Source of the DNA: a virus
Strand: one strand, 5' to 3'
IMG/VR virus record: IMGVR_UViG_3300028298_000036
Span: 1-21,754 of that record
Length of the DNA: 21,754 nt
Made by a program: the position numbers and the translations under genes. Shown here in pieces: positions 973 through 10,554 of this stretch; position 1 is the stretch's first letter; each line of letters begins with the position of its first letter. Below the pieces are notes generated by a model. It was not told the origin of the DNA. It worked only from the letters and a program-made list of their open reading frames with translations, and made no database searches.

Positions 973-1188
973 ATGAGAGCACCTGATATGGACGGAGTGA
1001 AGACGCTGGATCCTAACGCTGTATTTTCAGTAGGCGAAGCCGCCAGGCTATTAGGTATGTCGCATAATGGCATGCTGGATAGAATCAAAAAAGGTAAAGT
1101 AAAAGCTGGTAGGTCCGGCAGCAGATATTTTATACCCGGAAGTGAAATACAAAAACAGATAACGTTGCCTGGAGAGATTGATGTCTGA
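973..1188 (+). CDS. Excisionase/MerR-like HTH DNA-binding protein
   Basis: The 71-aa product holds one winged helix-turn-helix of the HTH_17/excisionase type at about residues 17-60: VFSVGEAARLLGMS, then a recognition-helix region and RYFIPGSEI, the usual final strand. Such proteins act as excisionases or small transcription regulators; which one cannot be told from the sequence. No integrase gene is in the window, so a regulator or replication-accessory role is as likely. GGGGGTG precedes the ATG. It overlaps the primase gene by 8 nt. Confidence 0.7.
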   Translation: MRAPDMDGVKTLDPNAVFSVGEAARLLGMSHNGMLDRIKKGKVKAGRSGSRYFIPGSEIQKQITLPGEIDV

Positions 1189-3268
1189 TATAGTAGCTGC
1201 TTACGCCCAGGCCGGATATCGAATTATCCCGCTTGTAGGCAAGGTGCCGGACGTACCTAAAGGTACAGACTGGCGCGTATTACCGAAGGATCCAAAGGCT
1301 TGTAGGGCTGATTACCTAGATAACTACGGCGTGGTGGCTGAAGAGCGCCTTATTATAGACGTAGATGTAAAGAAAAATGCTCCCGGTAAAAAATCCTTCC
1401 AGCAACTCACAAAGGACGCCGGGCTCGAAAAGGGGTGGGAGAAGGCCACATTCCTTGTCCGGACCGGTACCGGGGGCTACCATATTTACCTGGACGTACC
1501 CAAAGGCCACGGGCCCATCCGGTTGCTTCACCCTGACTATCCCGGGATAGAGTTCAGATATGGCCCATTTTACGTTGTAGGGGCTGAAAGTATACATCCT
1601 GACACTAATGGGCTGTATGAGGTGCTTTATGGAGCTCCTGGAGCCCTCCAGGCTTGTCCTGAAGCCATCCTACGGCTGGTTACTAAGGTGGAGCGGGTGC
1701 TTTTGGGCCCCGTGGCTGAGGCCGGCTTCATAGATGATGATCCAATCAATGTAGAGCGGTATAAAGATACCCTGGCAGAGATGCCGGCTATCCCCAAAGG
1801 CGGAGGACAGACTAACAGTTTGTATATAGTAGCTTGCCGCGGCCGGGACCTGGGCTTGAGCCAGGCAAAGACCCGGGAAGTCATCCATACAAGCTATAAC
1901 AACATCAAACTCACCCCGCCGGTTGATGATTCTGAGATTGAGCATACGGTGGCTTCCGCCTACAAGTACGCGAACGAGAAGGCCGGACACCTTAATGTTA
2001 AAGCCATATTCAAAACGACAGAGGTTGGGGAAAAAGAAAAACTGACCAATTTGAGTTTTGATTATAAAGCCGGCACCGATATTGCCTTAAAAACCCTCAA
2101 GAACGCGGTGAACTACATTATGACCTTACCTTTGGTTGATGATGCTTTCCGCTATAACTGTTTCTCCGGTATGATAGAGATAGCCTCGTCCGCGCCGTGG
2201 TACAAGGAACGTGGATCCAGAGGCGCAAACTTAACCGATACTGATACCGCCTTGTTACGGTTTTACATGATTAAAGCCGTGGCGGTTGAATTTGCTAAAA
2301 ATACCGTCGAGGATGCCATTATTATAGCCGCCCACAAACGTCATTATCACCCTATCAGAAACTACCTCAACTCATTGAAGTGGGATGGTGTGAAGCGTAT
2401 AGACACATGGTTGGTAGACTACGGCCACGCGGTTGATACATCATACACCCGGGCGATAGGAAGAAAAACTTTATGCGCCGCGGTGAAGCGCGTTATGGAG
2501 CCCGGCTGCAAGTGGGACCATGTACTTATTATAGAGGGCTCTCAAGGCATTGGCAAGTCGACAGCTTGCCGGATCCTGGGCCGCAATTGGTCCGGGGATA
2601 TGAACTTGGATCCTCATAGCAAAGATTCTGTAGCCATGATGTTAAATAAATGGGTGATCGAACTATCAGAGATGACTGCGCTTAGGTGGGCAGATGCGAA
2701 CGCTTTGAAGAGCTTCATAACCCGAGAGAAAGATACCGTGAGGCTTGCCTATGAGCGCCACGCTAAGGATTTCCCGCGCCAATCCATATTTATAGGTACA
2801 GTGAACCCGGAGCATGTCGGCTACCTTAAAGACATCACCGGCAACAGACGTTATTGGGTGGTACGCTTCAATGGGCAAGTGGATCTCGTCGGGCTGGAAA
2901 ACAACAGCGATCAGTTGTGGGCTGAAGCTAGGGCGATTTACGCCGATGAACGTTTGTACTTGGAGGGGGAAGCGGAGTCGCTGCAGGTTATGGAAGCTCA
3001 ACAACGTATGCCGGAAGAGCCGATGCGTATAAATGTCAATAGGTGGATAAGAGAGAACCCGGACGTCACAGAAGTCCGCACAGATACAATATTGGAGTAT
3101 ATAGGTACACCCATGAAGAACATGACGCGCGCCGATCAGTCCCGGGTGGCTCAGGCTTTGACTGAGCTTGGGTGGGAAAAGAAACTTGAGCGTGTAGATG
3201 GGGTGTATTATACATCATATACAAAACCGCTGAGGGATCAGATCTCAGCAATGATGGAGGGTGTGTGA
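1181..3268 (+). CDS. PrimPol + VapE-type primase-helicase
   Basis: The 695-aa replication protein has two parts. The N-terminal bifunctional primase/polymerase domain shows the catalytic DVD (D60, D62) and RTGTGGYHIYL (94-104) with its histidine. The C-terminal VapE/VirE-like P-loop ATPase shows the family string GVKRIDTWL, Walker A GSQGIGKST (about 453-461), an acidic IELSEM Walker B region and GNRRYWVV. It would prime and unwind phage DNA. ATG 1181 was preferred over the adjacent TTG 1178 because GGAGAG sits well placed for it. The VapE name reflects homology, not a virulence role. Confidence 0.9.
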   Translation: MSDIVAAYAQAGYRIIPLVGKVPDVPKGTDWRVLPKDPKACRADYLDNYGVVAEERLIIDVDVKKNAPGKKSFQQLTKDAGLEKGWEKATFLVRTGTGGYHIYLDVPKGHGPIRLLHPDYPGIEFRYGPFYVVGAESIHPDTNGLYEVLYGAPGALQACPEAILRLVTKVERVLLGPVAEAGFIDDDPINVERYKDTLAEMPAIPKGGGQTNSLYIVACRGRDLGLSQAKTREVIHTSYNNIKLTPPVDDSEIEHTVASAYKYANEKAGHLNVKAIFKTTEVGEKEKLTNLSFDYKAGTDIALKTLKNAVNYIMTLPLVDDAFRYNCFSGMIEIASSAPWYKERGSRGANLTDTDTALLRFYMIKAVAVEFAKNTVEDAIIIAAHKRHYHPIRNYLNSLKWDGVKRIDTWLVDYGHAVDTSYTRAIGRKTLCAAVKRVMEPGCKWDHVLIIEGSQGIGKSTACRILGRNWSGDMNLDPHSKDSVAMMLNKWVIELSEMTALRWADANALKSFITREKDTVRLAYERHAKDFPRQSIFIGTVNPEHVGYLKDITGNRRYWVVRFNGQVDLVGLENNSDQLWAEARAIYADERLYLEGEAESLQVMEAQQRMPEEPMRINVNRWIRENPDVTEVRTDTILEYIGTPMKNMTRADQSRVAQALTELGWEKKLERVDGVYYTSYTKPLRDQISAMMEGV

Positions 3269-3759
3269 AGATAGAACTTGAACTATATAACTTAAAACAG
3301 ATAAGCGTTTCTATATCTGCCGTCCAAAACGCTATTGAAGGAAAAGCGCCCAGAGCCGTTGATTACGTACCGCTAATATATCTGAAAAGCATACTTGAAG
3401 AAATAAAAAGAAAGACGAGAGCTACCCCACCAGAGCAAGAGTGTCCTGAAGAAAAGACCCTCGATGAGATAATAGGAATATTAAGGGCTTATTGCGGAGA
3501 AAAAGGAAATAATGAGGGTGCCGTAGATACTTTGTTGCGACTTGAAGATGAATTGTTGGCTTATAGGCGTGGCAAACCCCAAGAAGGGAGCGATGTGAGA
3601 GAGAAGATGGTAAAGGCGATAAATGAAGTATTAGCGAAATACGCAAGTGGATTATTCACTAAAGCAAGCGGTGGTGAATTAGAAAAGAATATAGCCTCCG
3701 CAATCCTCTCCATTCTCCCAAAGATGGCGACGGATATTGACAAGCAGGATAAAAAATGA
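3265..3759 (+). CDS. Hypothetical helical protein, 164 aa
   Basis: GTG start in a GTGA overlap with the primase-helicase stop, with GGAGGG upstream. The product is helical and Lys/Glu-rich with no recognised domain. A proline-rich linker near residues 53-62 separates an N-terminal region from the C-terminal helices. Its last codons contain the TTGACA -35 box of the following HNH cassette, and its TGA abuts the -10 box. The C-terminus may therefore have been rewritten when the cassette arrived. Confidence 0.6.
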   Translation: MKIELELYNLKQISVSISAVQNAIEGKAPRAVDYVPLIYLKSILEEIKRKTRATPPEQECPEEKTLDEIIGILRAYCGEKGNNEGAVDTLLRLEDELLAYRRGKPQEGSDVREKMVKAINEVLAKYASGLFTKASGGELEKNIASAILSILPKMATDIDKQDKK

Positions 3760-3765
3760 TATACT
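3737..3765 (+). promoter_or_regulatory. Consensus sigma70 promoter of HNH cassette 1
   Basis: TTGACA (3737-3742), a 17-bp spacer, TATACT (3760-3765). The -35 box lies inside the last codons of the upstream gene. The predicted transcription start, about 7 nt after the -10 box, coincides with the first base (3772) of a 17-bp RNA stem. Confidence 0.75.
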
Positions 3766-3771
3766 TATATT

Positions 3772-3870
3772 GTCAAAGGAAAGGCGGTATTTTTATGTCA
3801 ACTGTTCAGGCAATCTTGCGGTGGAGAGACTTAACCGTTTTTCCTTTGACCCCGTAGGGTTGCCTGTTTT
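3772..3870 (+). ncRNA. Pseudoknotted structured RNA, copy 1
   Basis: This non-coding stretch folds in an A-B-A'-B' order. Stem A: GTCAAAGGAAAGGCGGT (3772-3788) pairs with ACCGTTTTTCCTTTGAC (3834-3850), 17 bp with two G-U pairs. Stem B: CAGGCAATC (3807-3815) pairs with GGTTGCCTG (3858-3866), 9 bp with one G-U pair, followed by TTTT. Because B starts inside loop A and ends outside it, the pair forms a pseudoknot. It may be a roughly 99-nt RNA or an attenuating leader for the HNH gene 12 nt further on. A similar element lies at 19029-19123. It matches no RNA family I can name. Confidence 0.65.
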
Positions 3871-3882
3871 ATTGGGGGTGTT

Positions 3883-4353
3883 GTGGAAAAGAAATCACAG
3901 TTAGTAGTAAATTGTAGAAGATGGCGTAAGCATAATCCGTGGGCGGTTCATTATCACGGGGCAAAAAGTAGATGCAGAAATGGCAAATATGCAAAAAGGG
4001 GTGTTAGGTTCTTACTTACAATGGAAGAAGTTGAGTTTATGTGGGTTAGAGATGAGGCTTGGAAGTTAAAACGCCCAAGTATAGATAGGAAAGATAGCAA
4101 AGGACATTACGAATTTTATAATTGTAGGTTTATAGAACGCTTAGCAAATATTTATAGAGATAGGGCTATGGTTATTGAACAATATAGTAAAGACGGGAAG
4201 TTTATTAAACGACATGAAACTATATCATCGGCGGCACGAGCAATGGGAAACATCAATTATAAAACAAGCATAGCCAGAGTAGTTAGCAATAAAATGCACA
4301 ATGGTTATCTTGCCAAAACCGCCTGTGGGTATAAATGGAGGATTGCAGAATGA
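3883..4353 (+). CDS. HNH homing endonuclease with NUMOD1-like tail
   Basis: The 156-aa product starts at GTG 3883 after GGGGG. The N-terminal half shows the AP2/HNH-associated pattern of freestanding phage endonucleases: HGAKSRCRNGKYAKRGV, then PSIDRKDSKGHYEFYNCRF (65-83). The C-terminal half (98-153) resembles a NUMOD1 DNA-binding module: VIEQYSKDGKFIKRH, TISSAARAMG and GYKWRI. It would nick or cut a specific DNA site to spread its own gene. It has its own promoter and an RNA element upstream, and the composition is more AT-rich than the replication genes. Confidence 0.75.
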   Translation: MEKKSQLVVNCRRWRKHNPWAVHYHGAKSRCRNGKYAKRGVRFLLTMEEVEFMWVRDEAWKLKRPSIDRKDSKGHYEFYNCRFIERLANIYRDRAMVIEQYSKDGKFIKRHETISSAARAMGNINYKTSIARVVSNKMHNGYLAKTACGYKWRIAE

Positions 4354-4670
4354 AAGATAATAAAATATCAAAGCCATTAACAGACATCAGGTATCTCGGT
4401 AAGGGGGTGTTTGAGTGTCGTCATGTAAAAGAAGATACCATTGCAGAAGATTGTTCTGTATGCAATCTTCATGCGGCTGACGCACAGATAAAATATCTTA
4501 AATCTAAGATGAAGCCATTAACAGATGAGCAGATAGAGAAGATACTGTCGGACTTCGCCCAAAAAATAAGGGAAGAATACGATGAATGGTTGACTGTTAA
4601 GGGGCATAAGCCAAGCGATAAAAAGTTAATAGACGACTGCAAATCCGCCCTCAAAGAAAGGAATATATGA
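4350..4670 (+). CDS. Hypothetical protein, 106 aa, possible mosaic
   Basis: ATG 4350 overlaps the HNH stop (ATGA). The N-terminal part has a Cys/His cluster (FECRHVKE..CSVCNLH) that could bind zinc. From about residue 54 the protein reads MKPLTDEQIEKIL, which looks like a typical protein start. A 14-bp sequence encoding KPLTD is present at both positions (4371 and 4512). The gene may be a fusion of two similar leaders joined by recombination. Function unknown. Confidence 0.55.
   Translation: MKDNKISKPLTDIRYLGKGVFECRHVKEDTIAEDCSVCNLHAADAQIKYLKSKMKPLTDEQIEKILSDFAQKIREEYDEWLTVKGHKPSDKKLIDDCKSALKERNI
4371..4525 (+). repeat. 14-bp direct repeat within one gene
   Basis: AAGCCATTAACAGA occurs at 4371-4384 and 4512-4525 in the same frame, each time encoding KPLTD. 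The second copy follows an in-frame ATG. This suggests a past recombination or duplication at a gene start. Confidence 0.6.
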
Positions 4671-4801
4671 GCTATAAAAGTAAGACATGTAAGTGCGGAC
4701 ACAATAAAAAGGCACATGGATATTATTATGGATGTAATAGATGTGGATGTCAGAAGTTTGTAAGAAAGAATAAACACACAAAGGAGAGCCACTATGAGTA
4801 A
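4667..4801 (+). CDS. Small zinc-ribbon protein, 44 aa
   Basis: ATG 4667 overlaps the previous stop and AAAGGA lies 5-6 nt upstream. The product has CKCGH near residues 8-12 and CNRCGC about 12 residues later, a compact zinc-ribbon pattern. It ends 8 nt inside the next gene. Such tiny zinc-ribbon proteins are common in phage early operons, usually without known function. Confidence 0.5.
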   Translation: MSYKSKTCKCGHNKKAHGYYYGCNRCGCQKFVRKNKHTKESHYE

Positions 4802-5033
4802 ATTGGAAGTTGCCCCACTAAGACATTATACGGAATGTAAGAGCCTCAAAGATGTAATTAACAAATGGGTAGCTATGTGGTTAGAACCCCTACCGAATAT
4901 TGAAGCTGGCAAAGTAGAATTACAACTCGCCATCCTTGAAGTGGTGAGGGGAACAATACCAAAAAGAGACTCAAGGAATACTCAAGAGTGTAAGATGATA
5001 GACAGCATAAACTCTAAGATAGGAGGGTTATGA
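4794..5033 (+). CDS. Hypothetical protein, 79 aa
   Basis: ATG 4794 follows AAAGGAGAG. The product is helical with a Trp-containing segment (VINKWVAMWLEPL) and no recognised domain. Its last residues, NSKIGGL, are encoded by a 16-bp sequence repeated at the end of the next gene, where NSKIGNL is encoded. It overlaps the next gene by 4 nt. Confidence 0.5.
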   Translation: MSKLEVAPLRHYTECKSLKDVINKWVAMWLEPLPNIEAGKVELQLAILEVVRGTIPKRDSRNTQECKMIDSINSKIGGL

Positions 5034-5205
5034 AGAAATATCGGGTTTATATAAGAAACAAGACTTTGAAAGATAAACGATGGAGTCCTTTGTTAGACTA
5101 CCATGATAAAGTAAAAAGAGACGCTAATTTATTAGCCTTTCAAAAGCATGAGGATGGCTACTTTACTAAAGACTGTGAATTTAAGGCGGTAAACTCTAAG
5201 ATAGG
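5008..5205 (+). repeat. 16-bp direct repeat at two gene ends
   Basis: TAAACTCTAAGATAGG occurs at 5008-5023 and 5190-5205. Both copies encode the C-terminus NSKIG and lie immediately before the next start codon, where the purine-rich part may serve as ribosome site. The repeat brackets the 61-aa gene at 5030, as expected if that gene was inserted or duplicated through this short homology. Confidence 0.7.
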
Positions 5206-5215
5206 TAATCTATGA
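5030..5215 (+). CDS. Hypothetical basic protein, 61 aa
   Basis: Starts in an ATGA overlap with AGGAGGG immediately upstream. The product is Lys- and Arg-rich (MKKYRVYIRNKTLKDKRW) and predicted to be a small mixed alpha/beta fold, but no family is recognised. It ends with NSKIGNL, matching the tail of the previous gene. Its stop overlaps the start of the thiamine-enzyme gene. Confidence 0.5.
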   Translation: MKKYRVYIRNKTLKDKRWSPLLDYHDKVKRDANLLAFQKHEDGYFTKDCEFKAVNSKIGNL

Positions 5216-5808
5216 ATAAAGAAGAGCTCATAGCTTTTGAGGAGGGGTTAAAAACCCTTTGGCACGAAGGCAAAATAAAATGCCCCCATCATTTTTGCGG
5301 TGGGAATGAGGACGTCCTCATCAAGTATTTTAAGGACCATGTCGGGCCAAAAGACTGGGTGTTTTCTACCCACCGGAGCGCCTATCACTGGCTGCTCAAG
5401 ACTGGTGACACAGAGTTTTTGATGGATCAGATCCTAAACAAAAATAATTCGATGCACATCATCGACTTAAAAAGGCGCTTCATATCAACAGCCATCGTCG
5501 GGGGTGGCTGCGGTCCGGCGGTAGGCACCGCCCGAGCAATATATGAAGCCGGTGACAATGAACGCGTGCATTGCTTTGTTGGTGACGGCGCTATGGATCA
5601 AGGTTGGTTTTGGGAGGCGATACGCTACGCTATCGGATGGGAGTTGCCAATCGTCTTTATTATAGAGGACAACAACCGATCAGTATGTACAGACAAAGCT
5701 ACCCGCTGGGGTAAAATGATCAACATCGACTCCTGGCCGCATATTTTCCGGTATGAATACAAGGCAACGTACCCGCATTGTGGAGATGGGAGGGCGATAG
5801 AATGGTAA
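5212..5808 (+). CDS. TPP-dependent E1 alpha-like subunit (PP domain)
   Basis: The 198-aa product matches the pyrophosphate-binding domain of E1 alpha/transketolase-type enzymes. It has SMH at 80-82, GPAVGTARA near 101-109, and the full TPP/Mg motif GDGAMDQGWFWEA (124-136) ending in NN at 154-155. The segment ELPIVFIIEDNN is the standard end of that motif. Family members usually have about 320-400 residues, so this is a minimal version. The partner domain is in the next gene, overlapping by 7 nt. Together they should form a two-subunit enzyme that cleaves or makes a C-C bond next to a carbonyl. The substrate is not evident; a keto-sugar or 2-oxoacid is likely. Confidence 0.8.
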   Translation: MNKEELIAFEEGLKTLWHEGKIKCPHHFCGGNEDVLIKYFKDHVGPKDWVFSTHRSAYHWLLKTGDTEFLMDQILNKNNSMHIIDLKRRFISTAIVGGGCGPAVGTARAIYEAGDNERVHCFVGDGAMDQGWFWEAIRYAIGWELPIVFIIEDNNRSVCTDKATRWGKMINIDSWPHIFRYEYKATYPHCGDGRAIEW

Positions 5809-6308
5809 CCTATAGAGAACAGCTGCATAAGTCGATGTTGAAATTGGCGCAATACTCAAAGACACGCTTTGTCGGCTACAACACCGCTCACGGTCCACAG
5901 ATGAATGGCACGCTGGTCGGGTGTGAAGAAAAATGTATTGAGATGCCGGTGGCGGAGAACCTGATGTGTGGCGTGGCCATGGGACTGGCGTTGAAAGGGT
6001 ATCTTCCGGTGTTGTGTTTTGAACGTTTCGATTTTTGTCTGGCCGGGGCCGACGCTCTCGTCAATCACATCGGGGCGCTTCAACAGTATGGGCTCATACT
6101 CCCGATGATCGTGAGAGTGTGTGTAGGCTCGCACAAACCTTTGAACCCGGGACCACAACACACAAGAGATCATTCTGAGTTTTTCCGAAGGCATTTTATG
6201 CTCGATGACTTGGATTCGGTACAAAAAATCAGAGACGTTTACGGAAGCCGTATAACAATGCCGTGGATGTTTGTAGAATATAGGAGCCTTTATGACACAA
6301 CAACTTAA
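5802..6308 (+). CDS. TPP-dependent E1 beta-like subunit (PYR domain)
   Basis: The 168-aa product carries the pyrimidine-binding domain. MPVAEN includes the glutamate (E52) that activates the thiamine ring. It is followed by GVAMGLALKGYLPVL, the DALVNHIGAL segment and GPQHTRDHSEFF with the conserved histidine (H120). It ends at PWMFVEYRSLYD, equivalent to the end of the E1 beta PYR domain. The C-terminal transketolase domain found in typical E1 beta (about 325 aa) is absent. ATG 5802 was chosen because GGGAGGG lies 7 nt upstream. It overlaps the radical SAM gene by 17 nt. Confidence 0.8.
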   Translation: MVTYREQLHKSMLKLAQYSKTRFVGYNTAHGPQMNGTLVGCEEKCIEMPVAENLMCGVAMGLALKGYLPVLCFERFDFCLAGADALVNHIGALQQYGLILPMIVRVCVGSHKPLNPGPQHTRDHSEFFRRHFMLDDLDSVQKIRDVYGSRITMPWMFVEYRSLYDTTT

Positions 6309-7086
6309 TTACATAGGGGTGTTTTTGACGTTCAAATGTCGTATGGGATGCAGTTACTGCATAAATCGCCACGGAGCGTTTGCCCCACGGAAAGAGATAA
6401 CCTTTGTAGAGTGGATGCGAATCTTGGGCCCGGTGGCCACTCGGGAAGATCTGCCTATCACGCTCCAGGGTGGGGAGCCTTTTGAGTACGAAGCTATCTA
6501 TGAGCTCATGTATCAATTACATAGAGCGGGCAAGAAGATGGATATCCTCACGAATGGTGATTTTGATGTTGACAAGTTTATCTTCCTGACGACACCGGCG
6601 ATGTTTGAAAGAAAGGCGCCGTACGCTTCTATACGTTTTTCATATCACTACAATTCAATAGGCGCGGAATTGGTACAGAAAGTTGAGAAACTACAAGACA
6701 AAGGGTATTCAGTGGGCATCTGGGGGTTGGATCACCCATGGATGGCTGAACGGAACGTACTTATGGCCGCCATGTGCCGCCGGTACAAAATTGATTGGCG
6801 CATGAAAGAGTTTTTGGACGAGAGACATGGGACGTACAAATATCCAGAGTATATGAAAGGCGACATAGAGAGTTGCCTGTGCAAATCGTCAGAGATGTTA
6901 TTCGCCCCAGATGGGCAAATACATAGATGTCATAGAGATTTGTATGCTGGGGTAAACCCACAAGATAAGTTTATTGAGGGGTTTAGACTGTGCGTGGCCC
7001 CACGTTGCAATAATTGTGATGTCAAGATGAAGACAAATCGGCTGCAGCAAGGTGGTCATTGTAGTGTGGAGATAAAAAAGATTTGA
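6292..7086 (+). CDS. Radical SAM enzyme with SPASM-like cysteine tail (1)
   Basis: The 264-aa product has the CxxxCxxC cluster motif (C16, C20, C23) for the SAM-binding 4Fe-4S centre, and LQGGEP (58-63), the usual glycine-rich strand. The C-terminal part has C195, C197, C213, C234, C239, C242 and C257, with a CLCKSSEMLFAPDGQIHRC segment, like SPASM/Twitch domains that hold extra Fe-S clusters. These enzymes start radical reactions on peptides, sugars or other small molecules. The tight overlap with the TPP subunits suggests a shared pathway. AGGAG precedes ATG 6292. The substrate cannot be read from the sequence. Confidence 0.8.
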   Translation: MTQQLNYIGVFLTFKCRMGCSYCINRHGAFAPRKEITFVEWMRILGPVATREDLPITLQGGEPFEYEAIYELMYQLHRAGKKMDILTNGDFDVDKFIFLTTPAMFERKAPYASIRFSYHYNSIGAELVQKVEKLQDKGYSVGIWGLDHPWMAERNVLMAAMCRRYKIDWRMKEFLDERHGTYKYPEYMKGDIESCLCKSSEMLFAPDGQIHRCHRDLYAGVNPQDKFIEGFRLCVAPRCNNCDVKMKTNRLQQGGHCSVEIKKI

Positions 7087-7111
7087 CAAAGTGCAAACCA
7101 TATGGTATAGT
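7083..7111 (+). promoter_or_regulatory. Consensus sigma70 promoter of the LAGLIDADG gene
   Basis: TTGACA (7083-7088), a 17-bp spacer, TATAGT (7106-7111). The -35 box contains the TGA stop of the radical SAM gene. The predicted start, near 7118, lies about 23 nt before ATG 7141 and would also serve the downstream genes. No pseudoknot element follows, unlike at the two HNH cassettes. Confidence 0.7.
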
Positions 7112-7140
7112 TAAACAACGAAAACAAAAGGGGGTATCAT

Positions 7141-7659
7141 ATGGATAAACAAAAATACAATCAGAAAAGACAAGAGAAAAGACGAGTTATCTGGATACAA
7201 AAATACCAACAAAAAATGTCAACCATTAAAAAACAACCCACAGACATATTGGCCTATACCGCGGGGTTAATCGACGGAGAGGGTTGTATCTACATATCAA
7301 AAGGCAAGCCTCGAGGGGCGCGTTTAAACAGCCAATACACTTTAAAAGTAGCCGTCGGAATGTCTGTTGCTACGGCGGTTAAAAAAATACAACACCACTT
7401 TGGCGGAGCATTGAGAGAACGAAATAACCGCCAATATAAACCTATACATCGATGGGAGCTTTCTTCTGTGGAGGCGGAACGATTTTTACGGCGTATACTG
7501 CCCTATCTAATAGTTAAAAAAGAAGAAGCCGTCTTAGGGCTAGAATTTCGAGAGCACATGAACGGATATATAAGAACTAAAGGTCGGACACTAACAGTGA
7601 AAGAAATAGCTGTAAGAGAGGCGTACAAATTAAAAATGGAGGAACTAAAACGTGGATAG
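7141..7659 (+). CDS. LAGLIDADG homing endonuclease, single motif
   Basis: The 172-aa product has one LAGLIDADG-type helix, AYTAGLIDGEG (38-48), followed by a beta-rich saddle region (CIYISKGK, YTLKVAVGM, HRWELSS). One motif per chain means it should act as a homodimer cutting a pseudo-palindromic site. A basic N-terminal extension (residues 1-32) precedes the domain. GGGGG lies 6 nt before ATG. It is a freestanding mobile gene between two radical SAM genes, with its own promoter. Its stop overlaps the next GTG start. Confidence 0.85.
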   Translation: MDKQKYNQKRQEKRRVIWIQKYQQKMSTIKKQPTDILAYTAGLIDGEGCIYISKGKPRGARLNSQYTLKVAVGMSVATAVKKIQHHFGGALRERNNRQYKPIHRWELSSVEAERFLRRILPYLIVKKEEAVLGLEFREHMNGYIRTKGRTLTVKEIAVREAYKLKMEELKRG

Positions 7660-8719
7660 AAAAGATCCCTGGCTACTTGATGGTTCGAAACTCCTCTGGC
7701 ACATGGACCGGGTACACAAACATTTTGTCCGTGGCAAGCGCATCGCCCCAATAATGATCGACGCCGGCATAACAAAGTTCTGTAATGTTAAATGCGAATT
7801 TTGTTACGGAATTTTCCAGAAGATGACAGGCGAGATGATACCGGAGAAAGCGCTTGTAAAGCTATTTTCTGACGCGCCAAAGGTGGGCGTCAAAGCTCTG
7901 GCCATCGTCGGGGATGGGGAGCCTACACTACACCCGGCGTTGATAGAGGCTGTTAGAGCCGGGGCGGAAGGCGGCCTGGATATGGCGATAGCAACGAATG
8001 GGGTAAAAATACCCTCCCTTCTCGAATTGCTCAACAGAATGGTATGGTTCCGTTTTAATCTTTCAGCTATTGAAGAAGGGTACGAAGTAGTCCATGGCCG
8101 TCCGTATTGGGATAAGGTAGCAGCAAACATCTATGCAGCTACTAAATATAAAAAACTGGCCGGGGTGCCCGTCACCATCGGCCTCCAGATGGTGCTCACC
8201 AAGAACGCCTTACCTTATGTACTCAGGGAGGCCCAATTCGCTATCGACGCCGGAGTAGACTATTTTGTGATCAAACAGTATTCGGAGCCTAAGGGTGAAG
8301 GTATGATAGGTATGTCTCCGGAAGAACAGAACGACCCAGAAGTACAAAGGATATTGAGGAAAGCCATGGCCATGTCAACAGAAAAGACAGCTGTTGTGGC
8401 CAAGTTCAACGCCATGGAATATGGGATGAAACGGCCCTATGATCATTGTCTTGACGTGCCGTTACTTTTCCAGATATCTGGAGACGGAAAGGCATACCCG
8501 TGCGGGTTTTTGTTTGGTAATGAAGCCTATTGCTACGGGGATTTGGCAAAGCAGGGGCTTGGGGAGATCCTGGCGTCGGAGAGATACTGGCGCATCGTGA
8601 ATCATATGCAGACAGGATTTAATGTACACACGCAATGCGAAGGATGTTGTCGCCATGACAGCAGTAACTTATTTATGCACAATTTTATGAACGGACCCCA
8701 ACATCGGAATTTCGTATGA
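7652..8719 (+). CDS. Radical SAM/SPASM enzyme (2)
   Basis: The 355-aa product has CNVKCEFC (C44, C48, C51) and GDGEPTLHP (88-95 region), both typical radical SAM features. Its C-terminus has a clear SPASM-type cysteine set: CLDVP, YPCGF, CYGD and CEGCC, with the GDGKAYPC and LGEILASERYW strings usual for this class. The start is GTG 7652 with GGAGG about 9 nt upstream. It ends in an ATGA overlap with the DUF6165-like gene. Family members modify peptides, sugars or nucleotides. Here the neighbours (TPP enzyme, glycosyltransferases) favour a sugar or small-metabolite substrate, which is inference. Confidence 0.85.
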   Translation: MDRKDPWLLDGSKLLWHMDRVHKHFVRGKRIAPIMIDAGITKFCNVKCEFCYGIFQKMTGEMIPEKALVKLFSDAPKVGVKALAIVGDGEPTLHPALIEAVRAGAEGGLDMAIATNGVKIPSLLELLNRMVWFRFNLSAIEEGYEVVHGRPYWDKVAANIYAATKYKKLAGVPVTIGLQMVLTKNALPYVLREAQFAIDAGVDYFVIKQYSEPKGEGMIGMSPEEQNDPEVQRILRKAMAMSTEKTAVVAKFNAMEYGMKRPYDHCLDVPLLFQISGDGKAYPCGFLFGNEAYCYGDLAKQGLGEILASERYWRIVNHMQTGFNVHTQCEGCCRHDSSNLFMHNFMNGPQHRNFV

Positions 8720-9093
8720 CCCGCCCAACAGGCATAAACATGAGTCTTGGCGACGCTATTGACCGTATAAGCATACTCACCCGTAAGATATACTTTGGCG
8801 AGGAAGGCGCGTACAAAGAATTTGTTTATTTGACTGAGGCGATAGACAAACTGGGTTTGCCATTGACGGGAGCGCTATTGGCAGCCATCATCCGTATCTC
8901 ACAAATGAATTTTGAGATATGGATCCGGGAGAACACCTTTCGCCGGGGAGAAGAGATGTCGCCGGAGGCTGTCAAGAAGATGATGATAGAAGTCCGGGAC
9001 TGTAACTCCAAAAGGCTCGAAAACAAAAACGAAATCAACCGTCTCACCGAGATGGGGTTTCGTGAGTTTAAAATTCAACACAGGAGTAGATAA
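8716..9093 (+). CDS. DUF6165-like protein of glycan clusters
   Basis: The 125-aa product begins with SLGDAIDRISILTRKI, close to the SVGE-x-x-DKITILxIK signature I associate with DUF6165. It has an NFEIWIRE centre and an N-x-x-R-x-x-x-KNEINxL end with E-x-K, as in that family. DUF6165 genes sit in polysaccharide and glycosyltransferase loci, and the biochemical role is unknown. ATG 8716 overlaps the previous stop; a second ATG at 8740 begins exactly at the conserved segment and could be the true start. Confidence 0.5.
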   Translation: MTRPTGINMSLGDAIDRISILTRKIYFGEEGAYKEFVYLTEAIDKLGLPLTGALLAAIIRISQMNFEIWIRENTFRRGEEMSPEAVKKMMIEVRDCNSKRLENKNEINRLTEMGFREFKIQHRSR

Positions 9094-9881
9094 TGGACAA
9101 AAAAGTTTTGATAGCTTGCCCCACATTCGCCCTGGATCCCAACCCAACAAAGTGGTTGATATCGCTGCTCACCATCTGCCAGGATCTTAAACGCGCGAAC
9201 ATAGAGCATGGGTTTCTTTTCCCGTACCGGAAGTCAATATACAAGGCTGAAAACCAGATAATAATGCAAGCTCTGACTGGCGGGTACACGCACATACTCA
9301 GGCTTGACGACGATATCTGGGGTATACAGCCAGGCGACGTTTTAAAGTTAATTGACGCTGACAAAGAATTTATAAGCGCTGTCATGTTCATACGTGGATT
9401 TCCTTTTTCCCGTTGCGCGTTCACAAAAGCGTTTCCGGAGTTATCGCTGGCTGAATGTGAAGCCCGGGGCCGTGATACATTGCATGAAGTCGATGGCGAT
9501 GGCGTACAACCGGTGGACCTGACGGCTTTTCCATTCACCCTCTTCAAGATAGAGTTGTTCTACAAAATGAAATACCCCTACTTTGACGACACAATAAAAG
9601 GTTCTCCTGACGCTCAATTCTGTGATAAATGTAAAGCCATGGGTGTGCAGCCGTATGTACACATGGATATACAAATCAATCATCAGGATGTCACGCCATG
9701 GAACCGGCTATTCCTGTTTAATTCCGAAGCCCGGCGGTTGTTGATGAACGGGAAGATGGATCCTTCAGATCCAAGGCACAGCGTATTTACTGAATGGTTT
9801 GGTAAGGATGGACTAAAAGACCTATACATACTGAAAGGAACCGGCCGTGAACCCAAGACTATTGACGATAGTACCGAGTAG
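9093..9881 (+). CDS. GT-A fold glycosyltransferase (1)
   Basis: The 262-aa product has a nucleotide-sugar fold: VLIACPTF at the start, a helix with KAENQIIMQAL, and HILRLDDD (67-74) giving the metal-binding DxD at the end of a strand. The later segment QFCDKCKAMGVQPYVHMDIQ resembles the acceptor/metal-binding histidine region of phage GT2-like enzymes. AGGAG precedes ATG 9093. It is adjacent to a second GT gene. It probably transfers a sugar from an NDP-sugar; donor and acceptor are unknown. Confidence 0.65.
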   Translation: MDKKVLIACPTFALDPNPTKWLISLLTICQDLKRANIEHGFLFPYRKSIYKAENQIIMQALTGGYTHILRLDDDIWGIQPGDVLKLIDADKEFISAVMFIRGFPFSRCAFTKAFPELSLAECEARGRDTLHEVDGDGVQPVDLTAFPFTLFKIELFYKMKYPYFDDTIKGSPDAQFCDKCKAMGVQPYVHMDIQINHQDVTPWNRLFLFNSEARRLLMNGKMDPSDPRHSVFTEWFGKDGLKDLYILKGTGREPKTIDDSTE

Positions 9882-10554
9882 AGGACGCCCAGAGTTGCTT
9901 CTCGAGATGATGGACTCATGGGCCCGAACCCGTGAAGTTGAGGGCATGTTGATTGCCTACATAAGCCCGGATGATCCTAAGTTTGACGACTACGTGCGCA
10001 TTTGCCCATTGCCGGAAGAGTGCTACCTTATCCAAGGCCCTCGGCGGTACATCACACACTCATACAACGCTATCGTAGCGGAAAATCCTGGCTTTACTCA
10101 CTACTCTCCCCTGAATGACGACCACTACTGTATCACTCCGGGGTGGGACAAGAAACTTATCAATTTGTTGGACCGGTTCTCGCGGGGCTGGGGGTGTGCC
10201 ATGGCGGAAGATAATCTCACTAACTGGAATACGCACCCACACCCGTCCGGGTGTGTGATATCCAAGAAGACCATAAAAGCGCTCGGATATATGTTTTACC
10301 CAAAGCTACGGCATATAGGTAATGATGTCATTGTGGGACGATTGTTTGGCAACCTTGGGATTTTACATGGCACGAAAGATGTCGTCATAGAACACCGTCA
10401 TTGGGTTAATGGCAAGAGACTCTTTGACGAGAACTACAAGTGGGTGTATGGCCAGGAAGAACAGTCTTATGGGGAGATGGTAGTGACCCACTACCTCCAC
10501 CACCAATACGAAATTGATAAAGCAAAGCTGGAGAAAGCGATGGCTGAAGAATGA
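9847..10554 (+). CDS. GT-A fold glycosyltransferase (2)
   Basis: The 235-aa product starts LLTIVPSRGRPELLLEMMDSW, the typical GT2-like first strand and helix. It has PLNDDHY (88-94) as the DxD-like metal site and later HIGNDVIVGRL and IEHRHW segments that fit the metal-coordinating histidine region. GTG 9847 lies 35 nt inside the previous gene, so the two are translationally coupled. It is the last gene of the metabolic island apart from a 48-aa ORF before the cytosine methyltransferase. Confidence 0.65.
   Translation: MNPRLLTIVPSRGRPELLLEMMDSWARTREVEGMLIAYISPDDPKFDDYVRICPLPEECYLIQGPRRYITHSYNAIVAENPGFTHYSPLNDDHYCITPGWDKKLINLLDRFSRGWGCAMAEDNLTNWNTHPHPSGCVISKKTIKALGYMFYPKLRHIGNDVIVGRLFGNLGILHGTKDVVIEHRHWVNGKRLFDENYKWVYGQEEQSYGEMVVTHYLHHQYEIDKAKLEKAMAEE

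Follow-up and report, generated by a model that had tools for sequence, protein, structure and literature searches.

What a virus would do with a thiamine pyrophosphate (TPP) enzyme, two radical S-adenosylmethionine (SAM) enzymes and two glycosyltransferases encoded side by side is the question raised by positions 5212–10554 of IMG/VR virus record IMGVR_UViG_3300028298_000036. The window (G000), meaning the whole 21,754-base stretch analyzed, is this virus record and is probably a fragment of a larger genome. An earlier note had proposed that these genes make an unusual sugar, branched or keto, and attach it. That proposal was strengthened by a dehydrogenase-type partner and by three TPP enzyme families found in related loci, while the reactions and the target are still inferred. 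On balance, sequence comparison leads us to favor a viral sugar-modifying cassette in which the radical SAM enzyme RS2, or a Zn-dependent medium-chain dehydrogenase/reductase (MDR) alcohol dehydrogenase (ZnADH) in other viruses, would carry out an oxidation, the TPP enzyme a C2 addition and the glycosyltransferases the transfer. We advance more tentatively the broader claim that this may be an undescribed viral "oxidize, then branch" pathway in which both slots are modular (radical SAM/twitch or Zn-MDR; three TPP families) and repeatedly exchanged, with RS2 as a new radical SAM sugar dehydrogenase.

The individual reactions, their order, the product and the target are proposed from sequence, predicted structures and gene exchange. 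RS2 would oxidize a hydroxyl of a sugar or nucleotide sugar to a carbonyl, the same oxidation that ZnADH would perform elsewhere. The TPP enzyme, with subunits alpha and beta, would add a C2 unit (acetyl from pyruvate, or a ketol) to this carbonyl, and the product would be a sugar that is branched or otherwise extended by C2. RS1 may introduce a further radical change, to which we assign neither position nor reaction, and the glycosyltransferases gtA and gtB would transfer the sugar, most likely onto a virion protein or a host surface glycan. Two features were constant across the loci, an oxidizing enzyme and a TPP enzyme, and glycosyltransferases usually lay close by. If the proposal is correct, the chemistry of branched sugars, described until now from bacterial polysaccharides and secondary metabolites, is also encoded by viruses, and reactions for two uncharacterized radical SAM families can be predicted from the exchange pattern. 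Carried on virions or host glycans, such sugars could alter which phages adsorb to a cell.

The TPP Enzyme and the Exchange of Its Family

The split TPP enzyme reported earlier was borne out by Pfam domains in both subunits. Alpha (5212–5808, plus strand like the rest of the cassette; 198 aa) is the pyruvate dehydrogenase (PDH)-E1-alpha-like, TPP-binding half (PF00676 E1_dh, 2.8e-15; phrog_34187, N-half), and beta (5802–6308; 168 aa from the ATG at 5802, which was taken as the start, the open reading frame (ORF) listing giving a TTG at 5778) is the pyrimidine-binding half (PF02779 Transket_pyr, 1.5e-6). The two match adjoining halves of a single viral protein family, phrog_34187. Single-chain alpha/beta fusions exist among the relatives, and these fused proteins matched both PDH E1 alpha and PDH E1 beta in the PDB. 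The GDG...NN TPP motif of alpha was intact, its core being invariant in 22 aligned sequences (including G124/D125), and the Glu of beta expected to activate TPP was invariant in 20. Compared with the PDH-E1/alpha-KADH2 family, the E1_dh-type TPP-binding half and the pyrimidine-binding half with its catalytic Glu were present; in beta, Pfam recognized the pyrimidine-binding domain only, and the C-terminal transketolase-type domain of PDH-E1 beta was not found. Because beta lacks this domain, alpha/beta is, as judged from its sequence, a minimal PDH-E1 relative and not a full PDH-E1 member.

The TPP enzyme of related cassettes belonged to one of three families. Loci throughout this work are the best matches of each scan and not a random sample, and the lineages are not independent. 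A scan with RS1 returned 54 loci, and in 45 RS1 lineages the TPP enzyme was E1-like in 23, a split transketolase in 11, acetolactate synthase (ALS)-like in 6 and lacking in 5, three of these last lying on short contigs or close to a contig end. Pfam and NCBIfam searches of member proteins were used to check family identity, and the RS1 tree required 12 changes of TPP family. In locus L253 the genes run RS1-RS2-DUF-gtA-gtB-SNF2, as they do in the window's kin, with a transketolase pair in place of alpha/beta, and the locus branched beside those kin on the RS1 tree (SH-like approximate likelihood ratio test support, SH-aLRT, 82–91). Extra transketolase genes were seen at 0/266 alpha loci versus 12/29 RS1 loci without alpha; for ALS genes the counts were 5/266 and 9/29. 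When the test was based on RS2, one of the three TPP types was found in 36 of the 40 RS2a lineages and in 12/12 RS2b lineages, and ZnADH in 0/119 newly fetched RS2 loci; these loci partly coincide with those used before, so that the pattern was checked from a different gene but not on entirely new data. Among the four RS2a lineages without a TPP enzyme, RS2 stood at the contig end in L317, and the contigs of L338 and L339 were ~7 kb long, so a missing TPP neighbor is possible in these three. One ALS-type cassette (L286:2904–9267) also contained a GDP-mannose 4,6-dehydratase-like gene, an aminotransferase gene and a cytidylyltransferase-like gene.

All three families have been linked to the branching of keto-sugars. 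YerE is an ALS-type thiamine diphosphate (ThDP) enzyme of the yersiniose A pathway that branches a keto-sugar, its acceptor being CDP-3,6-dideoxy-4-keto-D-glucose (PMC12247030), and AviB1/B2, Pau11/12 and KbDH-alpha/beta are PDH-E1-type keto-sugar-branching enzymes (PMC4425429, PMC4753412, PMC12247030), C2 transfer to keto-sugar analogs being reported for KbDH-alpha/beta. For miharamycin, split transketolases acting after a keto-forming oxidoreductase are proposed to branch a keto-sugar. Because the families exchanging in the viral loci are these same three, we propose RS2 or ZnADH as the source of the carbonyl and the TPP enzyme as the catalyst of the C2 addition. The viral systems resemble YerE in a TPP enzyme with keto-sugar chemistry, and ALS-like members fill the TPP role in some viral cassettes, whereas the viral carbonyl would come from a radical SAM enzyme or ZnADH, and the TPP enzyme of the window is of the split, E1-like kind. 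AviB1/AviB2, Pau11/Pau12 and KbDH-alpha/beta likewise act in sugar pathways as TPP enzymes with two subunits of the PDH-E1-alpha/beta kind, a likeness by description and not by alignment; Pau11 and Pau12 have 325 and 345 aa, compared with 198 and 168 aa for the viral subunits.

TPP enzymes commonly take aldehyde acceptors, which would also suit an enzyme that, in place of branching a ketone, lengthens a sugar at its aldehyde or forms a heptulose or octulose in the manner of a transketolase, and so feeds a higher-carbon linear sugar into heptose-type activation and transfer. ZnADH lineages usually carried an HldE-kinase-like gene (TIGR02198, 4e-32), cyanophage P-TIM68 also an HldD-like epimerase gene (TIGR02197, 2.6e-54), and GT9 heptosyltransferase-like genes lay near some relatives. 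The ALS-like members in the same role, however, suit C2 branching from pyruvate better, the kinase was nearby in only 1 of ~150 radical SAM-lineage loci, and the window's cassette had no heptose genes. We regard a linear product as unlikely.

RS2 and Its Exchange with a Zn-Dependent Alcohol Dehydrogenase

The description of both radical enzymes as radical SAM/SPASM proteins stood in part: both are radical SAM enzymes, and RS2 has a Pfam SPASM match but RS1 does not. RS2 (7652–8719; 355 aa; PF04055, 1.5e-12; PF13186, 7.6e-7) has the features of a SPASM/twitch protein, namely the CxxxCxxC motif, auxiliary-cluster cysteines, the PF13186 match and the fold. Its cysteines C44/C48/C51, C266, C284 and C329 were invariant, and C333 was kept in at least 90% of sequences. 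The AlphaFold2 (AF2) model of RS2 (predicted local distance difference test, pLDDT, 89) gave Foldseek matches to SuiB, DesII, SkfB, BlsE and anSME. RS1 (6292–7086; 264 aa; PF04055, 6e-7) carries C16/C20/C23 and its own C-terminal set of auxiliary-cluster cysteines (C197, C213, C234, C239 and C242), all invariant in 11 sequences. The RS2 ORF of L052 (1867–3897; also in L055) has 676 aa with internal Hint, intein-splicing and LAGLIDADG matches and is an apparent intein-containing form. In L055, a B12-binding radical SAM protein (6416–7771) adjoins alpha.

Radical SAM enzymes and ZnADH excluded each other beside alpha. The 266 alpha ORFs were clustered at 90% identity into 85 lineages and partners were counted within 3.5 kb: 42 lineages had a radical SAM enzyme, 40 had ZnADH, none had both and 3 had neither (Fisher's p = 3e-22 for the exclusion, with kinship ignored). 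One of these three, L126, proved to be a single 716-aa ORF (5987–8134) of the form ZnADH-alpha-beta, which brings ZnADH to 41 and neither to 2; it sat on an extremely long branch because the row used for it was the ZnADH portion at the front of the ORF, and its position in the alpha tree was ignored. Counted over whole loci instead of 3.5 kb, L090 had ZnADH plus a weak radical SAM match on the opposite strand. The ZnADH relatives retained the catalytic Zn ligands and the nucleotide-binding motif.

The two enzymes also occupied the same slot. Loci L011 and L016 read c3-beta-RS2-alpha and L085 reads c3-beta-ZnADH-alpha, where c3 resembles a GT-B glycosyltransferase by eye only and has no Pfam or PHROG match. 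L162 and L163 combined RS2 with a fused alpha/beta and branched inside the ZnADH clade of the alpha tree; their RS2 was 72–75% identical to that of split cassettes. Four label changes appeared on the alpha tree, at least two of them forced by starred branches; this tree was built quickly, and many of its forks are open. Because of these open forks, and because the Fisher's test ignores kinship, we lean on the same-slot cases. The exclusion could also arise if RS2 and ZnADH were not equivalent and two separately inherited pathways shared a TPP enzyme, and most ZnADH cases did belong to one clade of fused enzymes with the kinase. Nevertheless, L085 (split TPP enzyme, ZnADH between beta and alpha) and L162 (fused, RS2 upstream) break this correlation, and the alpha tree shows at least two and up to four exchanges. 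Separate inheritance therefore appears quite improbable.

By analogy with its exchange partner, we propose RS2 to be a sugar alcohol dehydrogenase. A precedent resembling the RS2/ZnADH pair exists in 2-deoxystreptamine biosynthesis, where the radical SAM/twitch dehydrogenase BtrN exchanges with its Zn-dehydrogenase counterpart NeoA. BtrN and RS2 are alike in being twitch-type radical SAM enzymes, but BtrN is only a distant fold match. A specific BtrN assignment of RS2 was rejected, being supported neither by sequence nor by fold, and for this reason the dehydrogenase reading is drawn from the gene exchange with ZnADH alone. Several observations weigh against the oxidation and branching scheme. 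The RS2 fold is not specifically near a known radical dehydrogenase, its top Foldseek matches including peptide maturases and sugar enzymes, with BtrN only at rank 28 (TM-score 0.38 on the query). No sugar-nucleotide synthesis gene was recognized in the window's cassette. Finally, since the HldE-like kinase is usual in ZnADH lineages and lacking from radical SAM lineages apart from the single locus mentioned above, the two kinds of cassette may use different substrates.

Glycosyltransferases and the Likely Target

Both glycosyltransferases named in the earlier note were confirmed, gtA by its predicted GT-A fold and gtB by phrog_14945. In gtA (9093–9881; 262 aa), D72/D74 were invariant, and the AF2 model (pLDDT 78) matched mostly glycosyltransferases in Foldseek (top match 2c0n, E 2e-9). 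The gtB gene (9847–10554; 235 aa; GTG start) matched the phrog_14945 glycosyltransferase at 5.1e-24. The small protein preceding them (8716–9093; 125 aa) had been called DUF6165, a label that did not hold: 0/9 family members matched DUF6165 in Pfam at E ≤ 1, and 7/9 matched DUF4254 weakly. A DUF4254-like small protein adjoins alpha or RS1/RS2 in several lineages.

The cassette was found among replication genes in the window, L006 and L007, between head and tail genes in the L024 group, adjoining tail-fiber genes in L280 and inside sugar islands in cyanophages. Because its position differs between groups, a virion or host-surface glycan is favored over DNA as the target, with no choice made between those two. 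DNA had also been put forward, on the ground that a cytosine methyltransferase follows directly. In the window a Dcm-family gene (PF00145, 4e-43) does lie directly downstream, and in L052 a ParB-linked DNA methyltransferase of another kind lies a few kb away from the cassette. However, the arrangement was not conserved: 0/91 other loci first analyzed had a methyltransferase recognizably related to that of the window, an iterative search with the window's own methyltransferase returned the window alone, and in L006 and L007 gtB runs directly into SNF2. Other groups place the cassette among head/tail genes or in cyanophage sugar islands, and hypermodification of a DNA base together with the adjacent methyltransferase is thus very improbable. 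Equally remote is the maturation of a peptide of the ribosomally synthesized and post-translationally modified (RiPP-like) kind by the radical SAM/SPASM enzymes with unrelated neighbors, for although the RiPP maturases SuiB and SkfB are among the top folds of RS2, visual inspection of the cassette, with no dedicated search, revealed no precursor-peptide gene, and the partners that stay constant are TPP enzymes, usually accompanied by glycosyltransferases.

Distribution of Related Cassettes

A single-protein scan of IMG/VR with alpha gave no matches, and an alignment query was then used. These alignment-based scans identified 388 viral relatives of alpha and 80 of them were retrieved; cellular contigs contributed at least 7 loci. 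The same genes occurred together in dozens of viral lineages, so the grouping noted in the window is not due to chance. L006–L009 had nearly the window's gene order. A large group had the order gtB-c3-beta-RS2-alpha with a P22-coat-like major head protein gene upstream and a tape-measure gene downstream, and a huge phage carried beta-RS2-alpha. Among cellular matches, L086 and L087, bacterial metagenome-assembled genome contigs, contained all of RS1, RS2, alpha and beta, accompanied by a GT2 gene, and L087, which also has a sigma-54 gene, is likely chromosomal. The Acinetobacter match L005 was an ordinary acetoin dehydrogenase operon and was excluded.

Cyanophages carried a fused alpha/beta behind ZnADH inside sugar islands, and the neighborhoods of the relatives contained sugar genes (HldE-kinase-like, HldD-like and GT9). 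In the islands of P-TIM68 and S-SM2, the TPP enzyme is homologous to that of the window (42–44% identity to alpha) and adjoins ZnADH and sugar genes; in contrast to the window, alpha and beta are fused, ZnADH stands in for the radical SAM enzyme, and kinase and epimerase are present. The statement that no phage pathway with this gene set has been described holds for the literature searched, in which no phage TPP/radical SAM sugar cassette was found, yet relatives of the TPP enzyme are annotated in these islands. No cluster of homologous genes was found for which an unrelated role has been demonstrated.

Layout of the Window

The genes at 5212–10554 were real, intact and arranged as first described, and with catalytic residues intact they showed no sign of decay. 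All lie on one strand and most overlap, in line with the single overlapping operon proposed earlier, except that RS1 and RS2 do not overlap. Between them lies a previously unmentioned LAGLIDADG homing-endonuclease-like ORF (7141–7659; PF00961, 4.2e-5; phrog_5046, 9.8e-23). Because an ORF of this type is also found between RS1 and RS2 in L006 (2340–2972) and is missing from L007 and L008, it is a probable mobile passenger. The cassette is flanked by a primase/helicase gene (1178–3268) on one side and by SNF2 helicase, exonuclease, single-stranded DNA-binding protein and DNA polymerase genes on the other. Deposited phages gave no near DNA match to the window. A second endonuclease-like ORF, of the HNH type, was located upstream of the cassette at 3883–4353 (phrog_3377, 6e-5). 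G+C content was 0.38–0.39 at 3501–5500, just upstream of the cassette, and 0.43–0.53 over most of the stretch to ~18.5 kb.

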